From positions 1 to 64,000 of the forward strand of contig NZ_JANYGG010000135.1 in the NCBI RefSeq assembly GCF_025362505.1: a stretch of DNA of 64,000 nucleotides, read 5' to 3'. Both the position numbers and the translations under genes were made by a program. The notes under the pieces were generated by a model. The model was given only the letters and a program-made list of their open reading frames with translations, was not told the origin of the DNA and did not search any database. Below, piece after piece: positions 7,074 to 27,401 of this stretch; position 1 is the stretch's first letter, and each line of letters starts with the position of its first letter. Source of the stretch: Sphingomonas sp. (lineage in GTDB: Bacteria > Pseudomonadota > Alphaproteobacteria > Sphingomonadales > Sphingomonadaceae).

Positions 7074-8141
7074 TCACCTGGTTGAGAGGTTATCCGATGA
7101 GCGGAGCAATGCGAAGCCCGCGGAAACGGCAAGGACCGCCAGCCCCGCCAAGGCGGCCCGCTTGCTGTCAATGGCGTGATCCAGTTGCACATAGATCAGC
7201 GGCGCAACAAGCACGCCCAGATAAGCAAACGATGTTCCGGTCGCGACAGCCTCGGCCGTCTTACCGCTTGGCGCCGCAAGCGCGATCTCGGCCAGTAGAA
7301 TCCCGTTCCAGCCCATCGCGCTGATGCCAAGCAGAACGCTGCCGGCCATGAGCCGCATGAAAGATGGGAGAGGCCACAGCAACAAGAGCCATGCAAAGCC
7401 CGAAAGAATGCCAAGCAGGCCAAGGTGTAAATTGGCCCGGCCGAAGCGCGCGGTCGTCATCCCGAACACAATCCGCGCAGCCGCCCCGGCCATCGTGGCG
7501 ATTGCAAGATAGCCCGCCGACCGACCGACACTCATTCCATGCAACCAGACCAGGCTTGGCACGAGGTAGGTCGTAAGGGCCGCCTGATTAATCCCATAGG
7601 AGCCCGATACCAGCGCAAGACGCCGTGTCGCGGGTTCGGCAAGCGATACCTGCAAGGCGCTTAAAACATGCTCCCTGCCCGGCGGATGGTTCGCTTTGGC
7701 TCCAAAGTCTCGCAGACCGCGCTTGGCCAGCAGCGCGGTGACTGCCACCAGGGCCCAAACCACCGCTGCCATATGTTGCCAGCCGTAATGGTGCGCAACA
7801 ACGGGAGCGATGAGCGCAACCATCGCTGTTCCCACCGGAACGCCGGTTTGCCGCACCGAGACGACCAGCGGCTGCATTCGCTTTGAATAGCATTCGGCTA
7901 AAGCCAGCGAACTGGACGGGACGATGACGCCATAAGCCAGCCCCATCAACATGATCCCCGCAATGGCGGTCGCCAAGGGAAGGGGGTCGGTGCCGACCTG
8001 GCAGAACAGTTCAAAGCCAAGCCCCGTCGCCAACAAGGCCGCAAACTGGACAAAGCGAATGCTGAAGCTGGCCAATAGCCGGGTGGTAACCATCGAGCCG
8101 ATGATCGCCGCTGCGTAAATCAGCGAGGTGTAATACCCCAT
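7074..8141 (-). CDS. MFS transporter (start codon problem)
   Basis: This major facilitator superfamily carrier has many hydrophobic helices, YGVIVPSSSLALAECYSKRMQPLVVSVRQTGVPVGTAM (helix 4-5 signature) and a long central loop. The only ATG (8141) falls after transmembrane helix 1. In-frame coding upstream (TLFATSLIQIAGSFAIAGPFAISILIV) is clearly helix 1 and runs back to the TAG of the racemase-fold gene without any ATG, GTG or TTG. Either a rare start (ATT, ATC or CTG) is used, or the start was lost. It lies directly downstream of the racemase-fold gene and probably shares its transcript. Probable role: import of the substrate of module 1. Confidence 0.75.
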   Translation of the reverse strand: MGYYTSLIYAAAIIGSMVTTRLLASFSIRFVQFAALLATGLGFELFCQVGTDPLPLATAIAGIMLMGLAYGVIVPSSSLALAECYSKRMQPLVVSVRQTGVPVGTAMVALIAPVVAHHYGWQHMAAVVWALVAVTALLAKRGLRDFGAKANHPPGREHVLSALQVSLAEPATRRLALVSGSYGINQAALTTYLVPSLVWLHGMSVGRSAGYLAIATMAGAAARIVFGMTTARFGRANLHLGLLGILSGFAWLLLLWPLPSFMRLMAGSVLLGISAMGWNGILLAEIALAAPSGKTAEAVATGTSFAYLGVLVAPLIYVQLDHAIDSKRAALAGLAVLAVSAGFALLRSSDNLSTR

Positions 8142-8315: not shown

Positions 8316-9092
8316 CTAGCCCTTTGCTCGCTGGACCGAGGCGCCGCCATCAAGCATCCCGCTGATCATGTCACCCATGAACACGTGCGGCTTGGGATAG
8401 GCAACACGGCTATGCTTGAGCCCGAGCGACAGTGCAGCTTCAGCCAGCTTGTAGGTCAGCGGGCCCGGATTGATCAAGGGCACGGGCAGACGTTCGGCCA
8501 GCCAGGCATGGCTTTGATGCATCGTTGTTGATCCAAGGCAAATGGCCTCGGCACCATCTTCCACGCATTGCATTGCGGCGGCGAGAAGTTTGGGAAAGAC
8601 ATCCTCTTCTTTGCCGCCCAGCAGGTTGGAGACGTCCGGGGGAATATTGGGCGAGCGGATCGACACACATTTGTGCTCGAGGCCATATTCCTTCAGCGTC
8701 TTAGTGTAGAGACCTTTCCAGGGATCCCACTGGGTCAGAACCGAAAAATTATTGGCAAAGATAAGCGCGGTCAAAAACGAAGCGCGCCCGGGCGAAATCA
8801 CGGGAATATCCAGAACCGAACGCAGCGCGTTCATGCCGGAGTCGCTCATCGTATCGATGCAAACCGCATCATAGCCGTCCTTTTCAGCCGAGAGACCGGC
8901 TTCAAATATGGAAATGTCGGCCAGCACGTAATCGTGATGACTGTCATACAAGGCCGGTGCAGCTTTAACCGGCTTGTAGTCAAACGTGATGCCGGGACCC
9001 AACTGCACCGAACTAAGCTGTGCCTTGCGATTGGCGACGCCGTCGTCGTCTAGCGGGAACGGAACGATCACAAGAACGCGCTTGTCAGTCAT
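8316..9092 (-). CDS. Asp/Glu racemase-fold protein (hydantoin racemase-like), paralogue 1
   Basis: The 258-residue protein has the Asp/Glu/hydantoin racemase fold: N-terminal RVLVIVPFPLDDDGVANR, then IDTMSDSGMNALRS and LGSTTMHQSHAWLAERLPVPLINPG. Active family members use two cysteines, in a C-x-D-x-G region and a C-A-G-M-like region. Here those places read TMSDSG and LGSTTM, so neither cysteine appears conserved. The paralogue at 20983 shares the same replacements. It may therefore be a decarboxylase-, isomerase- or lyase-like member rather than a racemase. The start is ATG 9092 with AAAGGA upstream. It is divergent from the GntR gene across an operator-like palindrome. Confidence 0.7.
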   Translation of the reverse strand: MTDKRVLVIVPFPLDDDGVANRKAQLSSVQLGPGITFDYKPVKAAPALYDSHHDYVLADISIFEAGLSAEKDGYDAVCIDTMSDSGMNALRSVLDIPVISPGRASFLTALIFANNFSVLTQWDPWKGLYTKTLKEYGLEHKCVSIRSPNIPPDVSNLLGGKEEDVFPKLLAAAMQCVEDGAEAICLGSTTMHQSHAWLAERLPVPLINPGPLTYKLAEAALSLGLKHSRVAYPKPHVFMGDMISGMLDGGASVQRAKG

Positions 9093-9272: not shown

Positions 9273-10031
9273 ATGACATCGTTGCTCGCCGCCCCCGTCC
9301 CGCGATACCGGGAAATCGCCAATCAAATCGAGCGCGAAATCGTAACAGGCAAATGGTCCATCGGCGAAAAGCTTGCGCCCGAGCAGGCCTTGGCATCGCA
9401 ATACGAAGTAAGCCGCTTCACCATTCGCGAGGCGATGAGCCGGCTTGAGGAAAGTGGCCTTATCAGCCGCAACCGCAGGCGCGGAACGGTGGTCACATCG
9501 GCGGCGCCAATCGATCAGATGGTCCAGAAGCTGGGATCAATGGACGAACTGCTGCAATATGCGCCGCAGACCAGATTGAAAGTGTTGCGCACGCAATTGG
9601 TCGAGGCCGATGTCGCCCTGGCGCAAATGCTGGCCTGTTCGGCAGGATCGCGTTGGGCGCGCATTGAAACCATCCGTGTCGAAAGCAAGCGCAGTCCGGT
9701 TTGTTGGACAGATATCTATGTTCCGGCCGAGTTTGCCGACCTTGCCGACCAGATCGGAAAAGACGCAACGCCGGCGTTTCGGGTCATGGAGCAGACCTAT
9801 GGGCTGTTCGCGACCGACATCAATGCCGAACTGTTCGCCGGGTCGCTGACCCAGCGCAAGGCTGAAGCGCTTGAAGTTGAACCTGGCAGCCCTGCCCTGA
9901 TCATCGTCCGGCGCTACCGCGACCGCAGCGGCCGCTTGTTCGAAGTCTCGGTCAGCGAGCATCCGGCTGGCCGGTTTTCGTATTCGGTCGACCTGCAACG
10001 CAAAACAGGAAACACATTACCTCATGACTAA
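9273..10031 (+). CDS. GntR-family regulator, HutC subfamily (UTRA domain)
   Basis: The 252-residue protein has an N-terminal winged helix (PRYREIANQIEREIVTGKWSIGEKLAPEQALASQYEVSRFTIREAMSRLEESGLI) at residues 10-65. A UTRA ligand-binding domain follows, ending in GSPALIIVRRYRDRSGRLFEVSVSEHPAGRFSYSVDL. UTRA regulators usually release DNA on binding a pathway metabolite. The TTGGTCCAGACCAA palindrome just upstream and two more in nearby divergent promoters make it the likely local regulator of module 1. Its 3' end overlaps the next gene by 8 bases, so the two are co-translated. Confidence 0.85.
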   Translation: MTSLLAAPVPRYREIANQIEREIVTGKWSIGEKLAPEQALASQYEVSRFTIREAMSRLEESGLISRNRRRGTVVTSAAPIDQMVQKLGSMDELLQYAPQTRLKVLRTQLVEADVALAQMLACSAGSRWARIETIRVESKRSPVCWTDIYVPAEFADLADQIGKDATPAFRVMEQTYGLFATDINAELFAGSLTQRKAEALEVEPGSPALIIVRRYRDRSGRLFEVSVSEHPAGRFSYSVDLQRKTGNTLPHD

Positions 10032-10911
10032 AGCAATTCTCTCGGATTCTGCCGCTCCGATCCGCAGCTTCCTGTTCACGCCGGCGAATCACCCGCGCAA
10101 GGTGGAAAAGGTTTTCGCATCGGGTGCGGACGCCATTATCCTTGACCTTGAAGACGCCTGCGCCGCTTCCGAAAAACCGGCAAGCCGGGCGGTGGCGGTG
10201 GCAGCATTGTCCGCGCCGCGCTCCTGTCTGGGCTATGTGCGGGTCAATGCTACCGATACCGAATGGTGCTTTCGCGACCTCGATGAGGTTGTCGGTCCGT
10301 GGCTTGACGGGATCGTGGCGCCGAAAATCGAACGGCCCGAAGAGATCGTCCTGATCGACTGGATGATCGCGCAATTCGAGCGCGAACGCGGGCTCCCTGT
10401 CGGCGCAATCGATCTGATGCCGATCATTGAGACAGGGGCCGGGCTCCATGCCCTGGACGCGATCATTGCGGCAGGCACGCGGATGCGGCGCGTTTCGTTT
10501 GGCGCGGGCGATTTCACGCGCGATATGGGCATGAAATGGAGCGCTGACGAAGCCGAACTGGCCTATGCCCGGGGACGGCTCATTCTGGCCTCGCGCGTGG
10601 GCGGCCTGGAAGCGCCGATCGATACGGTTCATATCGATCTTGCGGACGAGGACAGCTTTGACCAGTCGGTTGTCACGGGGGTCAAGTTCGGGTTTCAGGG
10701 CAAGTTGCTGATCCATCCCAAGCAGGTTGCCCGAACCAATCAATCGTTCATGCCGAGCGCCAAGGAAATCGCCCGCGCCGAAAAGATCGTCGCCGCGTTC
10801 AACGCCGCTGAAGGCGCCGGGTCGGCCTCAATTCAGGTCGATGGCTATTTCGTCGACTACCCGATTGTAGAAAAGGCACAGCGCGTGCTGGCCTTGGCGG
10901 TGCGCACCTGA
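10024..10911 (+). CDS. HpcH/HpaI-family CoA ester lyase (CitE-like)
   Basis: The 295-residue TIM-barrel protein starts RSFLFTPANHPRKVEKVFASGADAIILDLEDAC, as citrate lyase beta-like and malyl/citramalyl-CoA lyases do. It continues with MPIIETGAGLHALDAI, SFGAGDFTRDMG and GKLLIHPKQV, which carry the Mg-binding Glu/Asp and acyl-CoA contacts. The family cleaves (or condenses) 3-hydroxyacyl-CoA or beta-hydroxy acids to acetyl-CoA and an oxo acid. It overlaps the regulator gene, so it belongs to module 1. A CoA-transferase gene converges on it from downstream and could supply the CoA thioester. Confidence 0.8.
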   Translation: MTKAILSDSAAPIRSFLFTPANHPRKVEKVFASGADAIILDLEDACAASEKPASRAVAVAALSAPRSCLGYVRVNATDTEWCFRDLDEVVGPWLDGIVAPKIERPEEIVLIDWMIAQFERERGLPVGAIDLMPIIETGAGLHALDAIIAAGTRMRRVSFGAGDFTRDMGMKWSADEAELAYARGRLILASRVGGLEAPIDTVHIDLADEDSFDQSVVTGVKFGFQGKLLIHPKQVARTNQSFMPSAKEIARAEKIVAAFNAAEGAGSASIQVDGYFVDYPIVEKAQRVLALAVRT

Positions 10912-10931: not shown

Positions 10932-12101
10932 CTAACCCAGCCAATCGGCCAGGACAGCGGCGGTGTCCGCGCCCAGTTCGCGCCCAGCCCAGCGTATGGA
11001 ACCTGGCGTATCGCTAAGCCGCGGGCAGACATTCGGCAAGGTCAGGGGGCCCGCGCGTTCGTCGACTATCTGAACGAGATTGTCGCGCGCGGCAAATTGG
11101 GGATCCTCAAAGATCTCGTCGATTCCATAGACCGGGCCGCACGGGACCTGGCCGGTTTCGCAGGCGGCGAGAATCTCGTCGCGGGTCATGGCACTGGTCC
11201 AGTGGCTTACAAAAGCGTCCACTTCGGCGCGTCTTGCCTCACGCTTGGCAATGGTCCCGTAGAAGCCCTCGCCGGTCACATCCATGCGGTCCATGATCGC
11301 GGTCAGGCGACCGAAAATCTTGTCATTGGTGCAGGCGATGGCCACCCATTTTCCGTCCTTGGTGGGGTAGTGACTGTGCGGCACCGCGTTGACCGTGCCC
11401 GCGCCCATCCGCTCGCGCACGAAGCCGTTGTAGGCATAAGCCGGCGCCAGCTCATCGAGCAAACGAAAGGTGCCCTCATAGAGCCCAACGTCAACAATCT
11501 GTCCCCGCCCCGTGCGATCGCGCGCGCGCAGCGCCGTGAGCACGCCGAGCGCCGCGAACAGCCCGGTGACATAATCCGATAACGTTGCCGTTCCCGGTGA
11601 TGCCGGCGGCGCCCCCGGCTCACCGCACAGATAGGAAATTCCACTAAAGGCATTGGCAATGCGGCCGAAACCCGGACGATCACTATAAGGACCAGTTTGC
11701 CCATAGGCCGTTACGCGGGCGATGATCAGGCGCGGATTGAGCGCCTGCAGGACATCAGGGCCCAGCCCCCAGCGCTCGAGCGTTCCGGGCTGGAAATTCT
11801 CGCACAGAATGTCGGCCTGCGCGGCGAGCTTTTTCAGCGTTTCAGCACCCTCGGGTGTCCGCAAATCAAGTTCGATCGATCGCTTGTTGCGCCCTTCACT
11901 GAGCCAGACCAAAGTATCACCCGACGGCGTCGGCGTGCCGAACTTGCGGATCGGATCACCGCTGCCCGGAAGCTCTATCTTGACGACATCAGCGCCAAAT
12001 TCCGCCAGATAAGTGGCGCAATAGGGCCCGGCGATGAAGGTTGCGAGATCAAGCACCTTGAGCCCTTGAAACGCACCCGGAGAAGGGCAATCGCCGATCA
12101 T
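10932..12101 (-). CDS. Family III CoA-transferase (CaiB/BaiF type)
   Basis: The 389-residue protein has GLKVLDLATFIAGPYCATYLAEFGADVVKIELPGSGDPIR at the N-terminus. The catalytic-aspartate region is DVGLYEGTFRLLDEL, and CENFQPGTLERWGL and ARVTAYGQTGPYSDRPGFG are typical motifs. Family III enzymes move CoA between carboxylic acids through an aspartyl-CoA thioester. It is transcribed from the divergent promoter with operator site 2, opposite the AbfD/HpaB-fold gene. A second family III enzyme sits in module 2. Donor and acceptor acids are unknown. Confidence 0.85.
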   Translation of the reverse strand: MIGDCPSPGAFQGLKVLDLATFIAGPYCATYLAEFGADVVKIELPGSGDPIRKFGTPTPSGDTLVWLSEGRNKRSIELDLRTPEGAETLKKLAAQADILCENFQPGTLERWGLGPDVLQALNPRLIIARVTAYGQTGPYSDRPGFGRIANAFSGISYLCGEPGAPPASPGTATLSDYVTGLFAALGVLTALRARDRTGRGQIVDVGLYEGTFRLLDELAPAYAYNGFVRERMGAGTVNAVPHSHYPTKDGKWVAIACTNDKIFGRLTAIMDRMDVTGEGFYGTIAKREARRAEVDAFVSHWTSAMTRDEILAACETGQVPCGPVYGIDEIFEDPQFAARDNLVQIVDERAGPLTLPNVCPRLSDTPGSIRWAGRELGADTAAVLADWLG

Positions 12102-12199: not shown

Positions 12200-13741
12200 G
12201 TGCTCATGTCCGCCGAACAGTATCGTGAATCGCTTCGACGGCTCAAGCCCCGGGTTTATGTTGGCGGCGATCTGGTCACCTCGGTGGCAGACGAGCCCCG
12301 GCTCGAGCCCGGCATCAACGCCACAGGCATAACCTATGATTTCGCGCTTGTGCCCGATTATGCAAAAGTCATGGTCACGAACGGGCTTTCGGGTGAGCCG
12401 ACTAACCGGTTTCTCGCCATCAACCGTTCGCGCCAAGACCTTCTCGACAAGCTCGAAGCCGTCCGGCTAACGTGCCAATATGCTGGCTGCACCCAGCGCT
12501 ATCTGACCCACGATGCCTTCAACGGTCTGTGGGAAGCAACCTGGCGGATCACCGAGCGCACCGGCAGCGAAAGTCATGACCGGCTGAAGGCATATATCGC
12601 CTATTCGCAGGCCAACGATCTCGCCATCGGCATCGCGATGACCGACGGCAAGGGCGATCGCTCAAAGCGTCCGTCCGAGCAGGTCGAACCCCTGTCTTAC
12701 GTCCACGTCAAGGAGCGCCGGGTTGATGGCATCGTCATCGCCGGAGTGAAGGCGATCGTGACGGGCGGGCCCTATATGCACGAATATCTGGTGCTGCCGT
12801 GCCGCCGCATGGGCGCCGAGGACAAGGACTTTGCGGTTGCCTGCGCGGTGCCGATTGATGCGCAAGGTGTAACCGTCGTTTCGCGTCCGGCAGGAAGGCC
12901 GGGCCAAGCCGCTGCCAAATTCAGCGCCAAGTTTGCCCAGTCGGTCGCGGCGGTCCATTTCGATGATGTTTTCGTGCCTTGGGACAAAGTGTTCATCGAT
13001 GGCGAAATCGACGAAGCCCACCTGATGACCACCAACTACGCCTCGCATCACCGCCATAGCTGCATCGGCGCGCGCGCCGGGTTCGGCGATTTGTTGATCG
13101 GCGCAGGCGCGTTGATGATGGAGGCCAACGGGCTTGATCTCAACAAGATCTCGCACCTCAAAGACAAGATGGTCGAACTGATCAAGATCACCGAAGGCTT
13201 CTATGCCTGCGGTGTTGCGGCCTCGACCTTTGGCGAAGAGGATGCCGCGGGAAATTTCCGGCCGGAACAGATCTACTCAAACATTGGCAAGCTGCTGCTG
13301 GCCAACCAGATCTATGACATGCACCGCATCGCCCACGAGGTTTCGGGCGGCCTGATCGTGGGGCTGCCCTCGCCCGAAGAGGATCACAATCCCGCCACGG
13401 CGCCGATGATTGAATCGCTGCTGCGCGGCCGGGCCGATGTGCCCTATAAACATCGCGCCAATGTTGCGCGCTTCATCGAAGACCTGACAGCTTCGGAAAC
13501 GGGCGGCTGGTATTCGGTGATTAGCCTGCACGGCGGCGGATCGCCCGAGGCAATGAAGCTGGAAATCCTGCGCAATTATCCCGTTCAAGATCGCAAGGAT
13601 CTGGTCCAATCGCTGCTCGATCGCGGCGCGCTCGATCTGGGCAAAGGCCCCTCGCGCGACAGTCAGCCGGGGCGTTGCTGCGCCAAGGGCTGTGCCTCCG
13701 ACGATGCCATACCCAGTCGCACGAGCTTCACCGCCGAATAA
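12200..13741 (+). CDS. 4-hydroxybutyryl-CoA dehydratase/HpaB-fold flavoprotein lacking cluster ligands
   Basis: The 513-residue protein matches the 4-hydroxyphenylacetate 3-hydroxylase/4-hydroxybutyryl-CoA dehydratase fold. Segments include GITYDFALVPDY, CTQRYLTHDAFNGLWEATWRI, HHRHSCIGARAGFGDLLIGA, KDKMVELIKITEGFYACGVAAS and HEVSGGLIVGLPS. It looks closer to the dehydratase AbfD than to HpaB. Of AbfD's four [4Fe-4S] ligands (Cys99, Cys103, His292, Cys299), Cys97 and His284 remain here. The other two positions read Tyr101 and Ala291. It may thus be an FAD monooxygenase or an FAD-only isomerase/dehydratase. The tail has a CCAKGC cluster. The start is GTG 12200 (GAAAAGGG 8 bases upstream) or ATG 12206. 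Confidence 0.75.
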   Translation: MLMSAEQYRESLRRLKPRVYVGGDLVTSVADEPRLEPGINATGITYDFALVPDYAKVMVTNGLSGEPTNRFLAINRSRQDLLDKLEAVRLTCQYAGCTQRYLTHDAFNGLWEATWRITERTGSESHDRLKAYIAYSQANDLAIGIAMTDGKGDRSKRPSEQVEPLSYVHVKERRVDGIVIAGVKAIVTGGPYMHEYLVLPCRRMGAEDKDFAVACAVPIDAQGVTVVSRPAGRPGQAAAKFSAKFAQSVAAVHFDDVFVPWDKVFIDGEIDEAHLMTTNYASHHRHSCIGARAGFGDLLIGAGALMMEANGLDLNKISHLKDKMVELIKITEGFYACGVAASTFGEEDAAGNFRPEQIYSNIGKLLLANQIYDMHRIAHEVSGGLIVGLPSPEEDHNPATAPMIESLLRGRADVPYKHRANVARFIEDLTASETGGWYSVISLHGGGSPEAMKLEILRNYPVQDRKDLVQSLLDRGALDLGKGPSRDSQPGRCCAKGCASDDAIPSRTSFTAE

Positions 13742-13744
13742 GCC

Positions 13745-14383
13745 CTAGCGGGGGCGCTCAACCGACATGGGCAAATTTGAAACGCGCGCCATTTCGCCGC
13801 GATCGAACAGGCCCGGATCTGCAAGATAGGCGCGCGCCATCGGCATAGCGTCTAGGCCCCAGAACAATTCGTGCCCGACAGCCAAAGTCGGAACACCATA
13901 GACACCCGCTGCGACGGCAGCCTCGGTGTTCGTGCGCAGTCGGTCCTTGACCGCTGGATCCTGCACGGCGTCCATCGGAACATCGAGCGCAGAGGCAAGC
14001 GCGGCGGCGGTTTCGGCCGACTCCGGATCGCGGCCCTCGACCCAAACCAGCCGGAACGCTGCGGCTGCATCCGCTACGGTCAGGTCCTTGGCGCTGAGCA
14101 GCCGGAGCAAGGTTAGCGGGTTGAACGGATGAGCGGGCGGCGCACGAAACGCCAAGCCCCGCTCATCGGCGAGCCATTGCACCATGCGGTATGTCTGCGT
14201 GCGCTTGGCCGGGATTTCGGCCGGGCCCAAATGTCCGAAGGCCTTGAGCAAGCCCGCGAAAAGGACTGGCCGAAACATGATATCATGCTGCGCCGAGAGT
14301 GCCGTGATTTCTGGGATGACAAGCGCAGCAAAAGGCGAAATGACATCGAAATACCAGACGATTGGCATTTCTGAGCTTGCCAT
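13745..14383 (-). CDS. DsbA-family/2-hydroxychromene-2-carboxylate isomerase-like protein
   Basis: The 212-residue protein has the kappa-GST/DsbA-like fold of HCCA isomerases. VWYFDVISPFAALVIPEI is the active-site strand (SPF where the family usually has SPY/SPW). LLSAKDLTVADAAAAFRLVWVEGRD and AGVYGVPTLAVGHELFWGLD provide the cis-Pro loop VPT and the conserved FWG. Relatives perform glutathione-dependent isomerisation or dithiol exchange; the lack of a CxxC excludes a DsbA oxidase role. Its ATG shares one base with the TGA of the TauD-like gene (TGATG), showing translational coupling. It converges on the AbfD/HpaB-fold gene with 3 bases between. Confidence 0.75.
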   Translation of the reverse strand: MASSEMPIVWYFDVISPFAALVIPEITALSAQHDIMFRPVLFAGLLKAFGHLGPAEIPAKRTQTYRMVQWLADERGLAFRAPPAHPFNPLTLLRLLSAKDLTVADAAAAFRLVWVEGRDPESAETAAALASALDVPMDAVQDPAVKDRLRTNTEAAVAAGVYGVPTLAVGHELFWGLDAMPMARAYLADPGLFDRGEMARVSNLPMSVERPR

Positions 14384-15240
14384 CAGAACGGCACCGCGCG
14401 GTCAGGCTGGGGCAAAATGGTCGTCCGATACATCAATCGCTCAAACTCCCCGTCAAAGTCGTCGCGTCGGTGCATGGTGCAGGCGTTGTCCCACATCAGC
14501 GCGTCGCTGACATTCCAATCGTGGCGGTAGACGAACTCATCGCGGCAGGTCCACGCAAACAGCTCATCGAGCACGGACCGGCTTTCGTCATCGGGCAATC
14601 CGCTGATCTTGATCGTCATGCCCGGGCAGACATAGAGCGCGCGCCGCCCGCTATAGGGATGCGTGCGCACCAGTGGATGCGCTATATCGGGCGTAATGTT
14701 GGTCTGTTTGGTATTGGTCGTGGTCGAGTACATCTGGTTGAAGGCGACATACGATTGGATCGCATTACGCCCATCGACCACATCCTTGAGATGACGCGGA
14801 AGCCGCGCGTAAGCGGTGGTCATATCGGCAAAATGAGTGCTGCCACCTGTAGGCGGGATCTTGATTGAAAAGAGTAGCGAGCCGACGGCAGGTTTAGGCA
14901 GATAGATTTGGTCAAAATGCCAACCAACTTCGCCATCGGCGAGTGCGCCGGTCGGCTTGCCGTCTTCGCGGATGTTGGTGATCTGCAGAAGCTCGGGGTG
15001 CGTCTTGTTGAGCCACTCCTCGCGGAGGTGGATCTCGAGCGGCCCGACCAACCGGCTGAACTCGATCAGATCCTCTTTCTCGATATCCTGCTCCCGAAAC
15101 AGCAGGACCTCGTAGCGCAGCCATAGTGCCCTGATTTCATGAAAGACATCCGGAGCCATTTGACCGGATAGAGTGACACCCAGCACTTCGGCGCCAAAGG
15201 TATCGGTCAGCGGCCTGACCTCGAGTGACTTCGCTACCAT
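14383..15240 (-). CDS. TauD/TfdA-family alpha-ketoglutarate-dependent dioxygenase
   Basis: The 285-residue protein starts LEVRPLTDTFGAEVLGVTLSG, as TauD-type enzymes do. It carries VGWHFDQIYLPKPAVGSLL, the HxD iron-ligand motif, and a distal ligand in DALMWDNACTMHRRDDFD. The C-terminal ERLMYRTTI arginine should bind 2-oxoglutarate. These Fe(II) enzymes hydroxylate an unactivated carbon, often next to a heteroatom, and can release sulfite, amine or phenol. It is cotranscribed with the isochorismatase-like gene upstream (9-base gap) and the isomerase-like gene downstream. Confidence 0.85.
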   Translation of the reverse strand: MVAKSLEVRPLTDTFGAEVLGVTLSGQMAPDVFHEIRALWLRYEVLLFREQDIEKEDLIEFSRLVGPLEIHLREEWLNKTHPELLQITNIREDGKPTGALADGEVGWHFDQIYLPKPAVGSLLFSIKIPPTGGSTHFADMTTAYARLPRHLKDVVDGRNAIQSYVAFNQMYSTTTNTKQTNITPDIAHPLVRTHPYSGRRALYVCPGMTIKISGLPDDESRSVLDELFAWTCRDEFVYRHDWNVSDALMWDNACTMHRRDDFDGEFERLMYRTTILPQPDRAVPF

Positions 15241-15249
15241 TTAGGGCCC

Positions 15250-15936
15250 CTACGCTGCCACGCCAAGCTTGGTGAACTGTTCGATTTCCGCGATGATTTC
15301 ATCAGTAGTCGCAACCCGACCCCACAGCCGCCTGAACGTATCCTCGAACGCGAGCTGCATGCGGTCGCTGCAGGTGCCCGAGGCATCCGAAGCAACAACA
15401 ACCCCGAAGCCGCGATCGGTTGCCTCCATCCCGGTCATGCCAACGCAATTGTTGGTCGAGACGCCGGTGACGATGATCTCGCTGATCCCTTTTGAGGTCA
15501 GATGCGCGCCAAGCCCGGTCGAGGCAAATCCGCCCATCGTTACCTTGTTGAACACTGGCTCTCCGGGCAGCGGCTTCAGCGGATCGACGATCTCATGCTC
15601 ACGCGTGCCCGCATGATTGTTGGTCGCTTCGAAGAGCGGCCGCATGTGGCGCGGGGCATCGCTGTAGTCGCTGCGCTCACAGCCCACCGTCAGATGGACA
15701 ATGTGGGTACCGGATGCACGGAACGCCGCCAGCAGTTTACCGATATTGGGAATGAGCAGCGTGTCGATCCGGTCAAAGCGATAGTCCGCGCTTTCCAGCT
15801 GGCATTGATCGCTCAGCAGCTTGCCCAGGCCATGAAATCTGCTGCCGCTCGCGTATTGCATGTCGACAACCACAAGTGCGCTCGTTCGCGTGTTGAGTAC
15901 GACGGGGGCAGTAAAGCCTTCAAAATAGTTTGACAT
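15250..15936 (-). CDS. Isochorismatase-like (cysteine) hydrolase
   Basis: The 228-residue protein begins MSNYFEGF at ATG 15936; the longer ORF-track start is unsupported because it runs through the operator and into the divergent GST gene. The catalytic triad of the family is visible: Asp in LVVVDMQYA, Lys in VFNKVTMGGF and Cys in VSTNNCVGMTG. Members hydrolyse amides or vinyl ethers, including N-carbamoylsarcosine, maleamate, nicotinamide and isochorismate. Next to hydantoin racemase-fold and HyuAB genes, an N-carbamoyl or maleamate-like amide is a reasonable guess but not proven. It is the first gene of a three-gene operon behind operator site 3. Confidence 0.8.
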   Translation of the reverse strand: MSNYFEGFTAPVVLNTRTSALVVVDMQYASGSRFHGLGKLLSDQCQLESADYRFDRIDTLLIPNIGKLLAAFRASGTHIVHLTVGCERSDYSDAPRHMRPLFEATNNHAGTREHEIVDPLKPLPGEPVFNKVTMGGFASTGLGAHLTSKGISEIIVTGVSTNNCVGMTGMEATDRGFGVVVASDASGTCSDRMQLAFEDTFRRLWGRVATTDEIIAEIEQFTKLGVAA

Positions 15937-15951
15937 GGGCAGAGCCTCGTA

Positions 15952-15965
15952 ATGGTCTGGACCTT
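15952..15965. promoter_or_regulatory. GntR operator, site 3 (ATGGTCTGGACCTT)
   Basis: On the other strand this reads AAGGTCCAGACCAT, matching the palindrome at 9231 and 12117 in 11 of 14 positions with the GGTCCAGACC core intact. It lies in the divergent gap between the isochorismatase-like gene (start 15936) and the first GST gene (start 16029). Confidence 0.6.
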
Positions 15966-16028
15966 TCCTAACACGAGGTTGACAAGGCGCACAATAGGAA
16001 CAAGCATGCCGCTGAGAGGAGTTTTGGC

Positions 16029-16763
16029 ATGAAGCTGTTCTATTCCCCCTTCCACACTTTCGTGCACAAGGTTCTGGTGACCGCGCACGAGTGCGGCCAC
16101 TGGGACCACATGGAACGCATCGCAACGTTCCCGTTCAAGAACAACCAGGGTGAGGATTGCGGCGACAGCTACGACATCAGCCAGCTGAATCCGCTCGACA
16201 AAGTGCCCACTTTGGTAACCGACGACGGCCAGTCCGTTTTTGGCAGCCAGGCCATCTGCGAATATCTCGACAGCACCGCGCGTACCGGCAAAATATACCC
16301 CGAGCCGGGTCCCAAACGGTGGGACGCCCTATGCCGGTTGTCGTTGTGCGATTCGATCTTCGAAAGCACCGTCCAGATGGTGATGGAGCAATGGAAGCCG
16401 CGCGATCAATGGAACATGGGCCTGTTTGAATGGCTGTGGCCCAAATTTACGGCCGGACTCGATTCTTTGGAACGCGACGCAAAGCGCGGCTGGGACAGCT
16501 TCGATGTCGGACATGCGGCCATGCTGCACGCGATCAGCTATCTAGGCTTTCGCGCCGAGTTTTACGAGGCGAAGGACCCGATCCATCCCAATTTCAACTG
16601 GCGAGATGGGCGCCCTGCTCTCTCTGCGTGGTATGATGAAGCATTGCAGCGGCCCTCGGTCCAGCGGCACTACAATCAACCGTTCGAAGGCGATGACAGT
16701 GCCGCAGCCTGTCAGGCTGCTGTGCGCGCTTGCCTCGACCTTCGCGCAACGAATGGGGCATGA
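16029..16763 (+). CDS. Glutathione S-transferase-like protein 1
   Basis: The 244-residue protein has a thioredoxin-like N-terminal domain: MKLFYSPFHTFVHKVLVTAHECG, then NPLDKVPTLVTDDGQSVFGSQAICEYLDS. The latter holds the cis-Pro (VPT) and the glutathione-binding Ser (GSQAI). An all-helical C-terminal domain follows. Substrate chemistry (conjugation, isomerisation, ether cleavage) cannot be read. It is divergent from the hydrolase operon across operator site 3 and overlaps the next GST gene by the ATGA tetranucleotide, so the two are co-translated. Confidence 0.8.
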   Translation: MKLFYSPFHTFVHKVLVTAHECGHWDHMERIATFPFKNNQGEDCGDSYDISQLNPLDKVPTLVTDDGQSVFGSQAICEYLDSTARTGKIYPEPGPKRWDALCRLSLCDSIFESTVQMVMEQWKPRDQWNMGLFEWLWPKFTAGLDSLERDAKRGWDSFDVGHAAMLHAISYLGFRAEFYEAKDPIHPNFNWRDGRPALSAWYDEALQRPSVQRHYNQPFEGDDSAAACQAAVRACLDLRATNGA

Positions 16764-17446
16764 TCGACCTTTATTACTGGCCCACGCCAAACGGGCATAA
16801 AGTGTCTGTCGCGCTTGAGGAGATGGAACTCGCCTATGCGGTGAAGCCCGTCAACATCCTCTCTGGTGAGCAACACACGGCTGATTTCCAGGCCATCAGT
16901 CCGAACACCCGCATCCCCGCCATCGTCGACCACGAAGGCCCTGGCGGCGGCCCGTACGCAGTTTTCGAATCGGGCGCGATTCTGATGTACCTTGCCGAAA
17001 AGTCTGGCCGTTTCTGGCCTGCCGAACTGGCCCAGCGATCCAACATCGTCCAATGGCTGTTCTTTCAATGCGCCAACATCGGCCCCATGTTTGGGCAATG
17101 CGGACATTTCAGGGGCTATGCACCCGAACGGATCGACTATGGGATAAACCGCTATTGCGGTGAAACTGTCAGGCTTTATGGCCTCATGAATGAAGTGTTG
17201 GGCACGCGCGACTTTCTCGCCGGCGCGAATTACTCGATTGCCGACATGGCGACCTACCCGTGGTGCGCGCCCATCGTTCGCGACCTCCACGCGATCGACA
17301 TCAATGACTTTCCCAATGTAAAACGCTGGGCCGGCGCCATTGAGAGTCGGCCAGCCGTCCAGCGCGGCATGGCATTGATGAGCGATGTGATGAAGATTGG
17401 CGATCCCGACGATGCCACGCGGGAAGCGCTATTCGGCAAACAGTAG
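16760..17446 (+). CDS. Glutathione S-transferase-like protein 2 (YghU/YfcG-like)
   Basis: The 228-residue protein starts MIDLYYWPTPNGHKVSVALEE, where the TPNGxKV motif is typical of nu-class (YfcG/YghU/Ure2-like) GSTs. SPNTRIPAIVDHEG and VFESGAILMYLAEKSG are the glutathione-binding segments. The start at ATG 16760 overlaps the TGA of GST 1 (ATGA). YfcG-type enzymes have disulfide reductase or peroxidase activity. With GST 1 and the HCCA isomerase-like protein, it makes three glutathione-fold proteins in module 1. Confidence 0.85.
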   Translation: MIDLYYWPTPNGHKVSVALEEMELAYAVKPVNILSGEQHTADFQAISPNTRIPAIVDHEGPGGGPYAVFESGAILMYLAEKSGRFWPAELAQRSNIVQWLFFQCANIGPMFGQCGHFRGYAPERIDYGINRYCGETVRLYGLMNEVLGTRDFLAGANYSIADMATYPWCAPIVRDLHAIDINDFPNVKRWAGAIESRPAVQRGMALMSDVMKIGDPDDATREALFGKQ

Positions 17447-17575: not shown

Positions 17576-20125
17576 TCAGAACTTGAAGCCAACCTCCACG
17601 CCATAATAGGCGCGTGCACCCGGCGAGATGAAGTCACCGCCGAATTCAGGCGCCGGAATAACTTCGGCCAGATAGTTCTTGTTCAACACGTTGTTGCCGA
17701 ACGCCGCAATACTCCAGTTGTGGGCGCTCACCGCAGCCCGCAAATTTAAGACACCATAGGCGCTACGCCGGGAGTTCTTGAAGTTCCCCGGAACTGCGCC
17801 ACCGAAAAACAGGTTCGGCACGTTGTTGTCTTGCACCGTATGAAAGAACGTCGGGCCAGTGATGCGGTAATCAGCCCGCAGCGCTAGATTGAACGCATCG
17901 GCAAGCGGGACATCAACCTGCGATCCCAGATTGATGGTGTAATCGGCCGTATAAGGTGATTTGTTTCCGACCGTGTAGGGACGTACGCTGTTCTTCTTGA
18001 TCTTGCTCTCGGTCACATTTGCCGAGCCAAATACTGTCCATCCCTTGATCACGCGCGCACTCAGCGAGGCTTCACCGCCGTAGAGCTCGACCTTATCGAT
18101 ATTGGAAACAACCCGCAGCAGTCCGAACGGACCCACGAAGAACTCGAAGAACTGCATGTCCTTTACCGTGGTATAATAACCGGCCAGTTCATAAGTGATG
18201 CGGTTGTTGGCGAAGCCGCCTTTAATACCAACCTCGAAGGCGCTGCTGGTTTCCTTCTTGTACTGGTCGGTGATTGCCAGCCCGGCGTTTATCGGAACAG
18301 GCGCGAACAGCGCTGTGCCATTGTTGAAGAAGCCATCGATAATGGCCTTGCTACCGCCCGCGTTGAACCCGCCTGACTTGAAGCCGATCCCCCAGTTGGC
18401 GAACAGCGTCGTCGAAGGGCCAGGCTTGTAGGTCAGGGTCACCTTGGGCTCGATCTGCTGGAAGGTTGCCGACCGCGCCGCAAGGACGCCGCTTGGATTG
18501 TAGGCCGGATCGAGACCGGGGTTCAGGTAGTAGTTCGCTGGTGTGCTGATCGTACCGTTGGGGAAGCCGGTAAGCGGATTGCCAACCCAGCGGGTTCGTG
18601 CGGCCGCTGGAATATTGTTTCCGACCTTGCGCTCTTCAACATCATAGCGGAGCGCGAAGCCGGCCTTTAGCGTGTCGGAAACCTTGTAGTCGAGCGCACC
18701 GAAGGCCGCGTAGACGTTGGTTTTAAAGGTGTCGTCGGCCAATCCTTCCGTCGGATTGCGCGGATCATTCGTATAGCATTCCCTGATTACGCCCTGCCCC
18801 GTGTCGAGCCCGAGATTAACGCAAACCCGGCGGTTGATGTGGAGCAGATAGCCACCGAGTTGCCAGGTCAACGGACCATCGGACTTCGATGCGAGACGAA
18901 GCTCAGCGCTGATGTCTTCCTGGTTACGGCGCTGATACTGGGTGCCATCGCAAGTGCTCGGGCCATAAGGCTGCGATCCGCGGAACGGGCCGATCGTCTG
19001 GAACGGTTCCTGAACCACTATGCCGGCCGTTGCGGCCGCGGTTGCGGTACAGTGCGGCTCGTTTCCAAAGAAGCCGAACGCCCCGCTGGTGCCATCGGCG
19101 TAAAAATCATTCTCGATCTTACTGTAGGAAACATAGCCCGTCAGCTTGCCGAAACCGACATCGGAATCAAACCGGCCTGAGGCTTCGAACGTCTTTTGAT
19201 AGTTGTTCGGCACGATGTTGGAATCAAACCTGAAGATATGGTCGTTGACGTTGATGTTGGAATCGATCGTCTTGCTGATCGAAAACAGCCCCGGGATCTG
19301 AAAAACACCGTTGAAAGCGATCGCGCCGGCCTTGACCTCGCCATAGCGCGCCTTGAGATCGATTTCGGTCGAGCCTCCGATTTTTGCGATCAAGCGACCG
19401 TTGATGTCGAACTTTCGGTAGTTGTCAACCGAAGCGGCGCGGGTCGAGTTGCCCGGATAAGTTGCGGTGTTGACAGCAGTGGGCAAAAACGTGTTGCGAT
19501 AGAACCCGTCCGACTTGCCATAGTCGCCGGAAATAACAAAACCGAGTGAATCTCCGATCGGACCGCTGACCAGGCCCGAAGCCGAGTAGGTTTTATTGTT
19601 GCCGTACGACGCCTTGCCTTCCATCTGCAGGTGGTCACCCGGCTTGCGGGTGGTAATGACGATCGCGCCAGCCGAGGCGTTGCGCCCATAAATGGCACCT
19701 TGCGGACCCTTCAAAACTTCGATTTGCTTCAGAGTACCTTGATTCTGGTTGAGCGCCGAGGTGTTGGTTTTAAGAATGCCGTCAACCACCAGAGCGACGT
19801 TGTTTTCGGCATCGCGCGCGCCATTCAGACCTCGAATATTGATTTGGGTGTCGCCAGATTCAGCAGTGCCGGTCACAATGCTCACACCTGGGGTGAGTTT
19901 GACGAAATCGCTGGCTGTCTTCACCCCGGTCTGCTCAAGCGTCGCTGCGGTGAACACGGTCACCGATGCAGGAACATCCTGAAGCTTTTCGTTCTGGCGG
20001 CGTGCCGTAACAATGATTTCTCCAGGAGAAGCCCCTACTTCCTCCGCATTTTGAGCAAGCGCCGGACTGGCCGCACAGCTGATGCATGCGATTGAACTCA
20101 GCAAGACGAATTTTGCAGTGCGCAT
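17576..20125 (-). CDS. TonB-dependent outer-membrane receptor
   Basis: The 849-residue protein has a signal peptide (MRTAKFVLLSSIACISCAASPALAQ) and a TonB-box-like GEIIVTARR. A plug domain follows (DVPASVTVFTAATLEQTGV, DGILKTNTSALNQNQGTLKQIEVLKGPQGAIYGRNASAGAIVITTRKP). A 22-strand barrel ends in GVEVGFKF with the terminal Phe. Such receptors, very numerous in sphingomonads, import large or scarce ligands across the outer membrane. Its start lies 25 bases after the SnoaL-like gene stop, so it probably ends an operon racemase 2-SnoaL-SnoaL-receptor and imports the module 2 substrate. A strong GGGGAG ribosome-binding site precedes the ATG. Confidence 0.9.
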   Translation of the reverse strand: MRTAKFVLLSSIACISCAASPALAQNAEEVGASPGEIIVTARRQNEKLQDVPASVTVFTAATLEQTGVKTASDFVKLTPGVSIVTGTAESGDTQINIRGLNGARDAENNVALVVDGILKTNTSALNQNQGTLKQIEVLKGPQGAIYGRNASAGAIVITTRKPGDHLQMEGKASYGNNKTYSASGLVSGPIGDSLGFVISGDYGKSDGFYRNTFLPTAVNTATYPGNSTRAASVDNYRKFDINGRLIAKIGGSTEIDLKARYGEVKAGAIAFNGVFQIPGLFSISKTIDSNINVNDHIFRFDSNIVPNNYQKTFEASGRFDSDVGFGKLTGYVSYSKIENDFYADGTSGAFGFFGNEPHCTATAAATAGIVVQEPFQTIGPFRGSQPYGPSTCDGTQYQRRNQEDISAELRLASKSDGPLTWQLGGYLLHINRRVCVNLGLDTGQGVIRECYTNDPRNPTEGLADDTFKTNVYAAFGALDYKVSDTLKAGFALRYDVEERKVGNNIPAAARTRWVGNPLTGFPNGTISTPANYYLNPGLDPAYNPSGVLAARSATFQQIEPKVTLTYKPGPSTTLFANWGIGFKSGGFNAGGSKAIIDGFFNNGTALFAPVPINAGLAITDQYKKETSSAFEVGIKGGFANNRITYELAGYYTTVKDMQFFEFFVGPFGLLRVVSNIDKVELYGGEASLSARVIKGWTVFGSANVTESKIKKNSVRPYTVGNKSPYTADYTINLGSQVDVPLADAFNLALRADYRITGPTFFHTVQDNNVPNLFFGGAVPGNFKNSRRSAYGVLNLRAAVSAHNWSIAAFGNNVLNKNYLAEVIPAPEFGGDFISPGARAYYGVEVGFKF

Positions 20126-20150: not shown

Positions 20151-20549
20151 TTAAACTAGAACGTTGGCTCCACTGAAATACACATAGACTTCCTGGAATT
20201 TTCCATCGCGGAAACGCCAGAAATTTGTGTTGTAAAACCGTGTTATCCCCCCGTCATGACCTGTCAGAACTGCCTCGAACGATGCAGTCACGCGACCGTT
20301 TTTTTCATCCACCGTGCATGCGAAGTCCTTGTGGACGATGGCTGCATAAGATCCGGTGAAATCTTCCAGCATGCGTCTTATCGACGCCTTGCCGGCGTGG
20401 CGAGTGAACGCGGTCTGGACGCAAAACAGCGCTTCATCGTTGAAGCATGCAATCGCCGCGTCGATGTTCTTCGCATCGACATTGCCGAAGTATTTGATTG
20501 TCGCGATATCGATCAACTCGTCGCGGCTGAGCGTTGGCTCATACTGCAT
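20151..20549 (-). CDS. SnoaL/NTF2-like protein A
   Basis: The 132-residue protein starts DELIDIATIKYFGNVDAKNIDAAIACFNDEALFCVQ and ends KFQEVYVYFSGANVL, an NTF2/SnoaL-like alpha+beta barrel. Family members include dehydratases, isomerases and cyclases, and binding proteins. It is a clear paralogue of the next gene; both share the YFxxVDxKxxxxxxxCFxxxAL opening and the VYVYxSGxNxL end. Its ATG overlaps the preceding TGA by one base (TGATG). The pair may form a heterodimer. Confidence 0.75.
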   Translation of the reverse strand: MQYEPTLSRDELIDIATIKYFGNVDAKNIDAAIACFNDEALFCVQTAFTRHAGKASIRRMLEDFTGSYAAIVHKDFACTVDEKNGRVTASFEAVLTGHDGGITRFYNTNFWRFRDGKFQEVYVYFSGANVLV

Positions 20550-20983
20550 CAGGCTTCTCCTTCCTTCAGCAAATTGTCGCCGCTCATATAAACATAAACG
20601 CGGTGAAACTTATCGCCTTTGAGATAAAAGCGGTTGCAGTTTTCATAGCGAAGCTCGGTGCTGCTATTGGGCGTAATAAGCACGGTAAACTGCGAGCAGA
20701 CCGAATTCGACTGCGGATCGGCGGTGTGCACAAAATTACCGTGCCAGATTTCGGCAAAATCAGAGAACAGCCGCGCAAACATCGCACGGACGCCGGCATC
20801 GCGTCCGGCGTGCACGGTGTTCGAGGTCACTTCAGTTAGCAAGGCATCTTCAGTGAAGCAGGCCAGCACCTGCTCCATGTCCTTATTGTCGACGCCATCG
20901 AAATAGCGCTTGGTGACGATGTCGATGTAATAGGGATAGGGCAGGGATGTCTGCCCCGCTCCGGCTTCGGTCCAGTCCGACAT
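20549..20983 (-). CDS. SnoaL/NTF2-like protein B
   Basis: The 144-residue NTF2/SnoaL-like protein contains YYIDIVTKRYFDGVDNKDMEQVLACFTEDALLTEV and ends DKFHRVYVYMSGDNLLKE. I use ATG 20983 (MSDWTEAG), which shares its A with the TGA of the racemase-fold gene, rather than the TTG three bases upstream. It is paralogous to protein A and tightly coupled on both sides. That tight coupling points to a stoichiometric job with racemase-fold protein 2. Confidence 0.75.
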   Translation of the reverse strand: MSDWTEAGAGQTSLPYPYYIDIVTKRYFDGVDNKDMEQVLACFTEDALLTEVTSNTVHAGRDAGVRAMFARLFSDFAEIWHGNFVHTADPQSNSVCSQFTVLITPNSSTELRYENCNRFYLKGDKFHRVYVYMSGDNLLKEGEA

Positions 20984-21732
20984 CAAGCGCTTCCTTTGCG
21001 AATGCCCGCATCATTGCCAACCTCTGGGAAGGGGAAGGCTTTCTTGCTGTGCGAAAGGCCAAGTTGAACGAGGAGTTCGGCCTGCTTGTAGGCAATCAAC
21101 CCCGGATTGATGACCGGGATAGGCAGGTTATCAGCAAGCCAGCGCGCCGATTGATGCATCGTCGTCGAGCCGAGCACGATCACATCGGCACCATCTTCCG
21201 CAATAGCTGCTTCTGCCTCGGCCTTCAGCTTTGCAAAGATAACCTCTTCCTTGCCGGCCAGCAGTTCGGCGACATCGGGGCGCGTCTTGATCGACCTGAG
21301 CGATGCGCAGCGCGGCCAGAAGCCATATTCCGTCAGCGTCTTTTCATAGAGCGGGAACCATTCATCCCACATGGTGAGGACGCAAAACTTCTTGCCCAGC
21401 GTCATGGCCATGTGAAACGCGCATTCACCGGGCCCGAGCACAGGGATCGACAGCCGCGAGCGTAGCGCCCGCAAACCGGAATCGCTCACCGTATCGATCA
21501 CGACCGCAGAATAACCCTCGTTCTCAGCATCGATGCCGGCCTGGAAAACTGTCCAGTCCATGAGCAGCATGTTATGATAGGAATCACCAAAGGCCGCGCC
21601 CCATTCCACCGCGACGAATTCAGGCTTGAAGCCCGGGGCGATCAAATTGACCGGTAGCTGGCTGGCGCGATTCGCAACGCCCGTTGCATCCATCGGAATT
21701 GGAACGATAACCTTGATGCGTTTTTCTACCAC
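20983..21732 (-). CDS. Asp/Glu racemase-fold protein (hydantoin racemase-like), paralogue 2
   Basis: The 249-residue protein is clearly homologous to paralogue 1: RIKVIVPIPMDATGVANR, VIDTVSDSGLRALRS, VLGSTTMHQSARWLADNLPIPVINPG. The start is GTG 21732, chosen because it aligns with the ATG of paralogue 1 (VVEKRIKVIVP versus MTDKRVLVIVP); the ORF track uses a TTG at 21759. Both expected catalytic cysteine positions are non-cysteine, as in paralogue 1. It heads a minus-strand operon with the two SnoaL-like genes and probably the TonB receptor. It is divergent from the FCD regulator. Confidence 0.7.
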   Translation of the reverse strand: MVEKRIKVIVPIPMDATGVANRASQLPVNLIAPGFKPEFVAVEWGAAFGDSYHNMLLMDWTVFQAGIDAENEGYSAVVIDTVSDSGLRALRSRLSIPVLGPGECAFHMAMTLGKKFCVLTMWDEWFPLYEKTLTEYGFWPRCASLRSIKTRPDVAELLAGKEEVIFAKLKAEAEAAIAEDGADVIVLGSTTMHQSARWLADNLPIPVINPGLIAYKQAELLVQLGLSHSKKAFPFPEVGNDAGIRKGSA

Positions 21733-21779
21733 TGGCTTTTCATCTACAGCTAATTGCAATGGACCGAGCTTAGGCTTAA

Positions 21780-21787
21780 TGTATACA
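21780..21787. promoter_or_regulatory. Operator-like palindrome TGTATACA upstream of the FCD regulator
   Basis: TGTATACA lies in the 87-base divergent gap between racemase 2 (start 21732) and the FCD regulator (start 21820). FadR/VanR-type GntR proteins commonly bind TTGTATACAA-like sites. On the other strand the region reads CTTTGTATACATT, sharing TTTGTATnCA with the palindrome at 22506. Confidence 0.5.
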
Positions 21788-21819
21788 AAGCTATCCGGTC
21801 AAGCTCATGGAAAAAAAGA

Positions 21820-22494
21820 ATGTCGCGCGCATCCGATCGAGCATATTCAATGATCAGGAACAAGATCCTTTCCGGTGAACTTCGATCGGGAGCAAAGATC
21901 GGCGAGGAGGCCCTTGCGGAGCAGTGCGGTGTTTCGCGCACCCCGGTTCGCGAAGCGCTGGGTCGGCTCGAAGCGGAATATCTGATCCGTCGCAGCGAAA
22001 CACAGCGCAGTTTCGTGGCTGACTGGTCGCTGGACGATGTCGAGGAAGCGTTCGAATTGCGCGGCATGCTGGAGAGCCGAGCCGCACGCCGAGCTGCCAA
22101 ACGCATCAACCAAAGTCAGATTGAGCGGATGAAAGTGCACAATCACGCTTTGCAGAAAGCAGTCGAACGCGACATTCCTGATACGCGGGTTTTCCTCGAT
22201 CACAACCAGCAGTTCCACACCATCATTCTTGAGGCGTCGGCATCTCAACGCCTGACCAACGCGCTGGCCAAGCTCATCGAACAACCGGTTATCTGGCGAA
22301 CTGTTCAGAATTTTACAGCCGGGGACTTGCAACGATCGTATCGTGAGCATGAGGAGCTGTTGGCTGCCTTCGAGCAGCATGATCCGACCTGGGCCGAGGC
22401 TGTCATGACCTCCCACATCCGCAGGGCATTCCACACTTATGCAAACGCCCACATGAACCAGCGGATTGTCGATAGCTCGCAAGCCGCTGAGTGA
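21820..22494 (+). CDS. GntR-family regulator, FadR/FCD subfamily
   Basis: The 224-residue protein has a winged helix (RAYSMIRNKILSGELRSGAKIGEEALAEQCGVSRTPVREALGRLEAEYLI). An FCD effector domain follows: EEAFELRGMLESRAARRAAKR, FLDHNQQFHTIILEASASQRL, YREHEELLAAFEQHD and the C-terminal SHIRRAF. The Asp/His-rich positions (DHNxxFH, H in SHIRR) are the usual metal and ligand site. The start at ATG 21820 puts the domain at the N-terminus; the ORF-track TTG start would place the operator inside the gene. Likely local regulator of module 2. Confidence 0.85.
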   Translation: MSRASDRAYSMIRNKILSGELRSGAKIGEEALAEQCGVSRTPVREALGRLEAEYLIRRSETQRSFVADWSLDDVEEAFELRGMLESRAARRAAKRINQSQIERMKVHNHALQKAVERDIPDTRVFLDHNQQFHTIILEASASQRLTNALAKLIEQPVIWRTVQNFTAGDLQRSYREHEELLAAFEQHDPTWAEAVMTSHIRRAFHTYANAHMNQRIVDSSQAAE

Positions 22495-27396: not shown

Positions 27397-27401
27397 CCCT
27401 C

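Follow-up and report, generated by a model that had tools for sequence, protein, structure and literature searches.

Replacement of both catalytic cysteines by threonine and serine in a clade of Asp/Glu racemase-fold proteins

Introduction

The chemistry considered to define the Asp/Glu racemase superfamily (PF01177) is that of a thiol pair; the superfamily includes a drug target (MurI) and has been a source of biocatalysts (arylmalonate decarboxylase (AMDase) and hydantoin racemase). Maleate isomerase, a PF01177-fold member that acts on an unsaturated dicarboxylate, depends on a cysteine. In Klebsiella pneumoniae allantoin racemase (KpAllR; 3QVJ and 3QVK), which stands beside Pseudomonas AllR (5LFD and 5LG5) among the allantoin and hydantoin racemases, the catalytic pair is Cys79 and Cys184. 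The fungal epimerase OpaE (9QBX) has C90 and C199, and its C90S/C199S double mutant retains at most 0.3% activity (PMC12661438). One-site departures are common, for example Thr83/Cys197 in EcL-DER, with MMP0739 likewise a one-site case (PMC8142540), Ala79/Cys193 in RacX (PMC12838360) and Gly74/Cys188 in AMDase (PMC4996985). In the openly searchable literature, we found no published account of a PF01177 group that lacks both cysteines.

Here we describe a clade in which both are replaced. It includes two proteins, RAC1 and RAC2, encoded in the window, that is, the whole 64,000-nucleotide stretch of Sphingomonas sp. DNA that was analysed.

Both catalytic positions are altered in RAC1 and RAC2

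The two genes and their motifs are as follows.

8316..9092, minus strand: RAC1, PF01177 protein of 258 residues; Thr81 and Ser188 in place of both catalytic cysteines by alignment
8835..8858, minus strand: RAC1 site 1, residues 79–86, IDTMSDSG; Thr81 codon at 8850–8852; aligns with the KpAllR Cys79 motif
8511..8537, minus strand: RAC1 site 2, residues 186–194, LGSTTMHQS; Ser188 codon at 8529–8531; aligns with the KpAllR Cys184 motif
20983..21732, minus strand: RAC2, PF01177 protein of 249 residues, with a GTG start at 21732; Thr81 and Ser189
21475..21498, minus strand: RAC2 site 1, residues 79–86, IDTVSDSG
21148..21174, minus strand: RAC2 site 2, residues 187–195, LGSTTMHQS

An in-frame TTG at 21759 is also a possible start for RAC2. 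The two proteins are 50% identical and both pass the Pfam cut-off for PF01177 (97.4 bits for RAC1 and 107.7 bits for RAC2; cut-off 31). In pairwise profile comparisons, the solved structure that aligned best with each was 3QVJ. The profile alignment to 3QVJ places Thr81 (IDTMSDSG) on the first catalytic cysteine of KpAllR, Cys79 (VIACFGDPG), and Ser188 (LGSTTMHQS) on the second, Cys184 (LGCGGM). In Cys-bearing PF01177 relatives from other Sphingomonadales, the same columns read IIDCMGDPG and LGCTGF. As judged from these alignments, Thr has taken the place of the first cysteine and Ser that of the second in RAC1 and RAC2 alike, in agreement with the apparent double replacement that a first-pass annotation had noticed.

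AlphaFold2 models of RAC1 and RAC2, built from the clade alignment, have a pLDDT of 92. The closest solved folds are the allantoin racemases 3QVK/3QVJ (TM 0.84 and 0.80), followed by hydantoin racemase and OpaE and then by AMDase (TM ~0.6). The predicted structure is thus the two-lobed racemase fold, of the hydantoin/allantoin racemase kind. Fold, length and motif positions are those of the allantoin/hydantoin racemases, at 24–29% sequence identity, and Thr118 of KpAllR is retained as T120. By contrast, in addition to the two cysteines, the positions of Asn12 and Thr119 are altered, and RAC proteins have features that these racemases lack: invariant W122, K161 and STTMH, and SnoaL, CaiB and lyase genes as neighbours. 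OpaE belongs by fold to the same subfamily, and it and RAC are both hydrophobic where KpAllR has Asn12; unlike RAC, it keeps both cysteines.

One inherited change, maintained by selection

Relatives of RAC were collected by a scan of bacterial genomes, which gave 79 loci, and plasmid records added more. Across the 98 distinct members, 96 have Thr and 2 have Ser at site 1, all have Ser at site 2, and none has Cys at either position. Members are found in Sphingomonadales, Erythrobacter and relatives, rhizobia, Tistrella, Variovorax, Pseudomonas, Rhodanobacter, Alloalcanivorax and actinobacterial metagenome-assembled genomes, and thus span Alpha-, Beta- and Gammaproteobacteria as well as the actinobacterial genomes. 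They are set apart by a gap in full-length bit score (members at least 325, other PF01177 proteins at most 150). In a mixture-model tree of 47 clade rows, three of them tandem second copies whose hydroxyls were lost later, against 26 Cys-type outgroups, the Thr/Ser members lie on one side of a branch with an SH-aLRT of 100. The subgroup defined by IDTxSDSG and LGSTTMHQS, whose phylogeny the first-pass annotation had proposed to examine, is therefore a single clade.

RAC1 and RAC2 fall into different subclades of it (support 1.0 and 0.95). Their shared change is thus inherited, and both a recent local duplication and independent convergence are ruled out. The first-pass annotation had argued that the same change in two copies points to selection. 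Selection is indeed supported, by conservation across the 98 members together with strong purifying selection between sphingomonad orthologues (pairwise dN/dS 0.03–0.07), which also rules out decay; the two copies, however, are not independent witnesses, as they share one ancestry.

No catalytic cysteine appears to have moved elsewhere. Among the 98 members there is no conserved Cys column anywhere in the protein, the best reaching 47. The cysteine of CIDTM in RAC1 (Cys78), which had been named as one that might occupy the active site of both copies, is Cys in only 44 of 98 members; the position is Val in RAC2 and Leu, Val or Ile in 54 of 98. Cys142 is ruled out in the same way (conserved in just 47 of 98). 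At the sequence level, then, no active-site cysteine common to both copies was seen.

Residues newly invariant in the clade (98 of 98) are D84, W122, Y129, K131, R146, K161, S188-T189-T190-M191 and N208-P209, and H192 is present in 97. Invariant D80 was set aside as a new catalytic residue: it is not special to the clade, because ID precedes the cysteine in Cys-type relatives too. His192 is not wholly new, because the aspartate racemase loop (CNTAH/TNTMH) has His at the same place. When the C-terminal half of RAC1 is aligned with the half of Pyrococcus aspartate racemase that it resembles, the N-terminal one, Ser188 falls at catalytic Cys82 and K161 at the lid lysine (GKGED). The matching half-site of aspartate racemase binds a carboxylate, and by this analogy the substrate of RAC may be a carboxylate.

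The clade is an accessory trait: members turned up in 12 of the 151 genomes searched from the order and in 6 of the 399 sampled across the phylum, and the five same-genus genomes have none. The whole island is missing from those five genomes, and the window genome (G000) has an estimated contamination of 5.89%. The island appears chromosomal, since the contig also has pnp, infB, nusA and truB-like genes (recognised by eye).

In three loci, a second racemase-fold gene lies in tandem with the Thr/Ser copy and has lost the hydroxyls (L005:16765-17421, L007:14768-15457 and L008:14787-15527; for example ADFGDYG and VIAGGT); these copies are perhaps non-catalytic partner subunits. In L006 and L019, by contrast, the second tandem gene still has Thr/Ser. 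One clade member (L008:13995-14759) is annotated 'hydrogenase expression protein HupH' and others 'aspartate/glutamate racemase'; both names are misleading.

Loss of both cysteines appears confined to the clade

In a survey of PF01177 proteins across the phylum, hydantoin/allantoin-like members kept Cys at one or both sites, aspartate-racemase-like members kept it at site 2 and had Thr, Ser or Ala at site 1, and double loss was found only in the Thr/Ser clade. The window genome has a third PF01177 gene (G000:C111:16743-17393, L001), in which just one site is replaced: site 1 has Ser (ASNTMH), whereas site 2 keeps Cys (LGCTE).

By profile and fold, RAC1 and RAC2 are PF01177 proteins; by the two cysteines that mark hydantoin/allantoin racemases they are not such racemases, having Thr81 and Ser188 at these positions, with Cys in 0 of 98 members. 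In the EcL-DER/YgeA-type aspartate-glutamate racemases and in RacX, one catalytic site carries Thr, Ser or Ala, and the TNTMH loop of the EcL-DER type resembles STTMH at site 2 of RAC; these enzymes keep the second-site Cys (LGCTE), however, and belong to another PF01177 branch. The Thr/Cys pair of that type does not occur in RAC, where site 2 is Ser in 98 of 98. AMDase shares with RAC the fold, the loss of one Cys and a hydroxyl-rich loop but keeps Cys188 as proton donor, and its motifs LMGTSLSF and ILLSCGGL (G74 and Cys188) are absent from RAC, which has IDTMSDSG and LGSTTMHQS instead. Maleate isomerase acts on the kind of substrate that the RAC neighbours suggest, but it was no close relative in these searches, and its nucleophilic cysteine has no counterpart at either site in any of the 98 members. 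To judge from the residues compared, RAC is thus neither an EcL-DER-type racemase nor an AMDase nor a maleate isomerase.

Catabolic gene neighbourhoods

In the window, RAC1 lies among the following genes.

7074..8141, minus strand: MFS transporter, downstream of RAC1
9273..10031, plus strand: GntR/UTRA regulator
10024..10911, plus strand: HpcH/CitE-type C–C lyase (RipC/CitE-like)
10932..12101, minus strand: CaiB-type CoA-transferase
12200..13741, plus strand: HpaB-type flavin monooxygenase
13745..14383, minus strand: DsbA-fold protein (DSBA domain), which we take to be HCCA-isomerase-like
14383..15240, minus strand: TauD-type dioxygenase
15250..16125, minus strand: isochorismatase-family amidohydrolase; true start probably further in
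16029..17446, plus strand: two glutathione S-transferase-like genes

This gene set is conserved in Novosphingobium. A luciferase-like monooxygenase (4436–5530, minus strand), closest to SfnG/alkanesulfonate monooxygenase, lies near the module. RAC2 has a different set.

17576..20125, minus strand: TonB-dependent receptor, adjoining RAC2 in most sphingomonad loci
20151..20549, minus strand: SnoaL-like protein B, 132 residues, 35% identical to A and overlapping it
20549..20986, minus strand: SnoaL-like protein A, 145 residues (Pfam SnoaL_2), with a 4-nt overlap with the RAC2 stop
21754..22494, plus strand: GntR/FCD regulator
22536..23444, plus strand: HMG-CoA-lyase-like (HMGL) C–C lyase, above the NCBIfam cut-off for hydroxymethylglutaryl-CoA lyase
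23460..25508, plus strand: HyuA (hydantoinase/oxoprolinase A); top NCBIfam match caprolactamase alpha, below its cut-off
25522..27396, plus strand: HyuB (hydantoinase B)
27327..28592, plus strand: CaiB-type CoA-transferase, nearest to succinate-glutarate CoA-transferase

RAC2 thus stands at the head of a compact unit, with the SnoaL-like pair, which the first-pass annotation had overlooked, and the TonB receptor on its own strand, and GntR/FCD, HMGL, HyuA, HyuB and CaiB on the other. The RAC2-type gene set recurs in about 50 sphingomonad loci. In at least 56 of 66 RAC2-clade loci, a SnoaL homologue is the gene immediately after RAC2; these loci include all 12 listed of the Pseudomonas, Rhodanobacter and Alloalcanivorax type. 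In two Novosphingobium loci (L063 and L064), genes for a GlcD-like FAD oxidase, a RutA-like flavin monooxygenase, an alpha/beta hydrolase and a methyltransferase lie between the RAC2 and RAC1 modules, at ~14–20 kb in each locus. Of these genes, those for the oxidase, the hydrolase and the methyltransferase are found again in a Pseudomonas locus (L027), and L058 also has the hydrolase and the methyltransferase; all three are absent from the 64-kb window.

Across 82 loci (raw counts, with no random-locus baseline), amide or cyclic-amide hydrolases (HyuAB, isochorismatase or PuuE-like) are present in 61, a C–C lyase in 62, both in 55 and a CaiB CoA-transferase in 60. The rhizobial relative is accompanied by a full complement of such genes: an isochorismatase-family enzyme, two PuuE-like proteins, LeuC/LeuD, a PrpB-like lyase, a TcuA-like flavoprotein and MmgE/PrpD, and the Alloalcanivorax relative by LeuC/LeuD, isochorismatase and HyuAB. 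We infer that one pattern recurs by means of different enzymes, with RAC as the constant: a ring amide is opened, the amide removed, the carboxylate hydrated or CoA-activated and the skeleton cut. Neither a HyuAB–racemase–HMGL–CaiB cluster nor a link to indole-3-acetate was found in the openly searchable literature.

Proposed function

RAC1 and RAC2 probably do not work as two-thiol racemases. Ordinary racemisation of that kind is unlikely because OpaE, of the same subfamily, is nearly dead with Ser at both sites. A reaction other than racemisation, as first proposed, is plausible, and the further proposal that the two proteins act on two related intermediates is also plausible, because they lie in different catabolic modules and belong to different subclades. 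Among the reactions then suggested, C–C cleavage and ring opening look taken, since the neighbours encode HMGL, HpcH and PrpB-like lyases together with HyuAB, isochorismatase and PuuE-like hydrolases. As hydrolysis and C–C cleavage have dedicated enzymes, isomerisation, decarboxylation or (de)hydration is left for RAC, and an isomerase step fits the neighbours at least as well as C–C cleavage or ring opening.

We tentatively favour, at somewhat less than even confidence, a cofactor-free, thiol-free isomerase that transfers a proton on a carboxylate intermediate of cyclic imide or lactam catabolism. To judge from the neighbours, a cyclic imide, lactam or similar amide would be opened by HyuAB or a PuuE-like enzyme, and the amide would then be removed by the isochorismatase-family enzyme. 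The resulting di- or tricarboxylate would be cut by a C–C lyase: a PrpB-like one would act on it as it is, whereas HMGL or HpcH would act once CaiB had transferred CoA. RAC would make the intermediate fit for the hydratase, CoA-transferase or lyase by a double-bond shift, a cis/trans change or an epimerisation. In its active site, the Ser188-Thr189-Thr190 loop, which matches the CNTAH loop that has this role in aspartate racemase, may bind the carboxylate or enolate, with Thr81 probably facing the bound group and an invariant lid or helix residue (Lys161 or His192) presumably moving the proton. Against this, Ser and Thr are poor bases, isomerisation at an acidic carbon could still be racemisation (the ancestral reaction, with another base), and 14 of 82 loci have neither an amide hydrolase nor a lyase nearby. 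The imide or lactam setting is itself not forced, because the relatives of HyuAB include ketone carboxylases besides lactamases.

The alternatives are each improbable to different degrees. That RAC is a racemase or epimerase which relies on weak or different bases, perhaps working in one direction, with a hydantoin-like, imide-like or carboxylic intermediate as its substrate, is rather unlikely. The nearest relatives of RAC are allantoin/hydantoin racemases, enzymes with Thr (EcL-DER) or Ala (RacX) at one site are active and biased in direction, and the HyuAB neighbours recall hydantoin pathways; yet Cys-to-Ser at both sites leaves OpaE nearly inactive, and all surveyed Thr, Ser or Ala members retain the second Cys. 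We consider unlikely, too, an AMDase-like cofactor-free decarboxylase, in which the hydroxyl-rich loop would form a dioxyanion hole, CO2 would be lost from a malonate-type intermediate and another residue would protonate. AMDase is the nearest non-isomerase in the fold searches and itself lacks one Cys (G74; PMC4996985), and by the pseudo-symmetry of the fold S188-T189-T190 may sit where the other lobe of AMDase has G74-T75-S76. However, AMDase needs Cys188 as its proton donor and RAC has none, the TM score is just ~0.6, its two motifs are missing and nothing points to a malonate-type substrate.

Unlikely to a slightly greater degree is a hydrolase or hydro-lyase, in which Ser188, at a helix N-terminus with His192 near, would be the nucleophile or bind water to open a lactone or imide or to add or remove water. 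The Ser is invariant and the His nearly so, and the sphingomonad RAC2 operon is without a dedicated hydratase; ring and amide hydrolases already adjoin RAC, however, and the SnoaL-like pair or LeuCD could serve as hydratase. We know of no hydrolase on this racemase fold. A precedent that also speaks for a hydro-lyase comes from the proline racemases, a family unrelated to this one, where an epimerase becomes a dehydratase when Cys is exchanged for Thr (PMC8142540). That RAC is not an enzyme but a binding, regulatory or partner subunit, for example of the SnoaL-like proteins, is very improbable: the loss of both catalytic residues, the close linkage with SnoaL-like genes and the tandem copies that lack the hydroxyls too would suit it, but the whole pocket (S188–T190, K161, R146, W122 and Y129) is strictly kept over 98 members, as in active enzymes, and RAC occurs with two different sets of neighbours.

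Discussion

We regard the RAC clade as a non-cysteine variant that is new to a known superfamily and whose catabolic setting is likewise undescribed. More doubtfully than the isomerase step itself, the clade may represent a distinct thiol-free and cofactor-free class that acts on carboxylates on the Asp/Glu racemase fold, recruited at least twice, as RAC1 with HpcH/CaiB/HpaB and as RAC2 with HyuAB/HMGL/CaiB and the SnoaL-like pair, into widespread, undescribed pathways for branched cyclic imides or lactams. These substrates could conceivably be of the dialkylmaleimide type and arise when natural pigments break down. The corresponding idea of a tetrapyrrole-derived imide (hematinic acid) remains speculation, with no support in the openly searchable literature. 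The conserved neighbours make the pathway open to growth screens in culturable Pseudomonas, Erythrobacter and Novosphingobium. If the clade does work without either thiol, it would show the thiol-free scope of the fold and provide a new cofactor-free catalyst.
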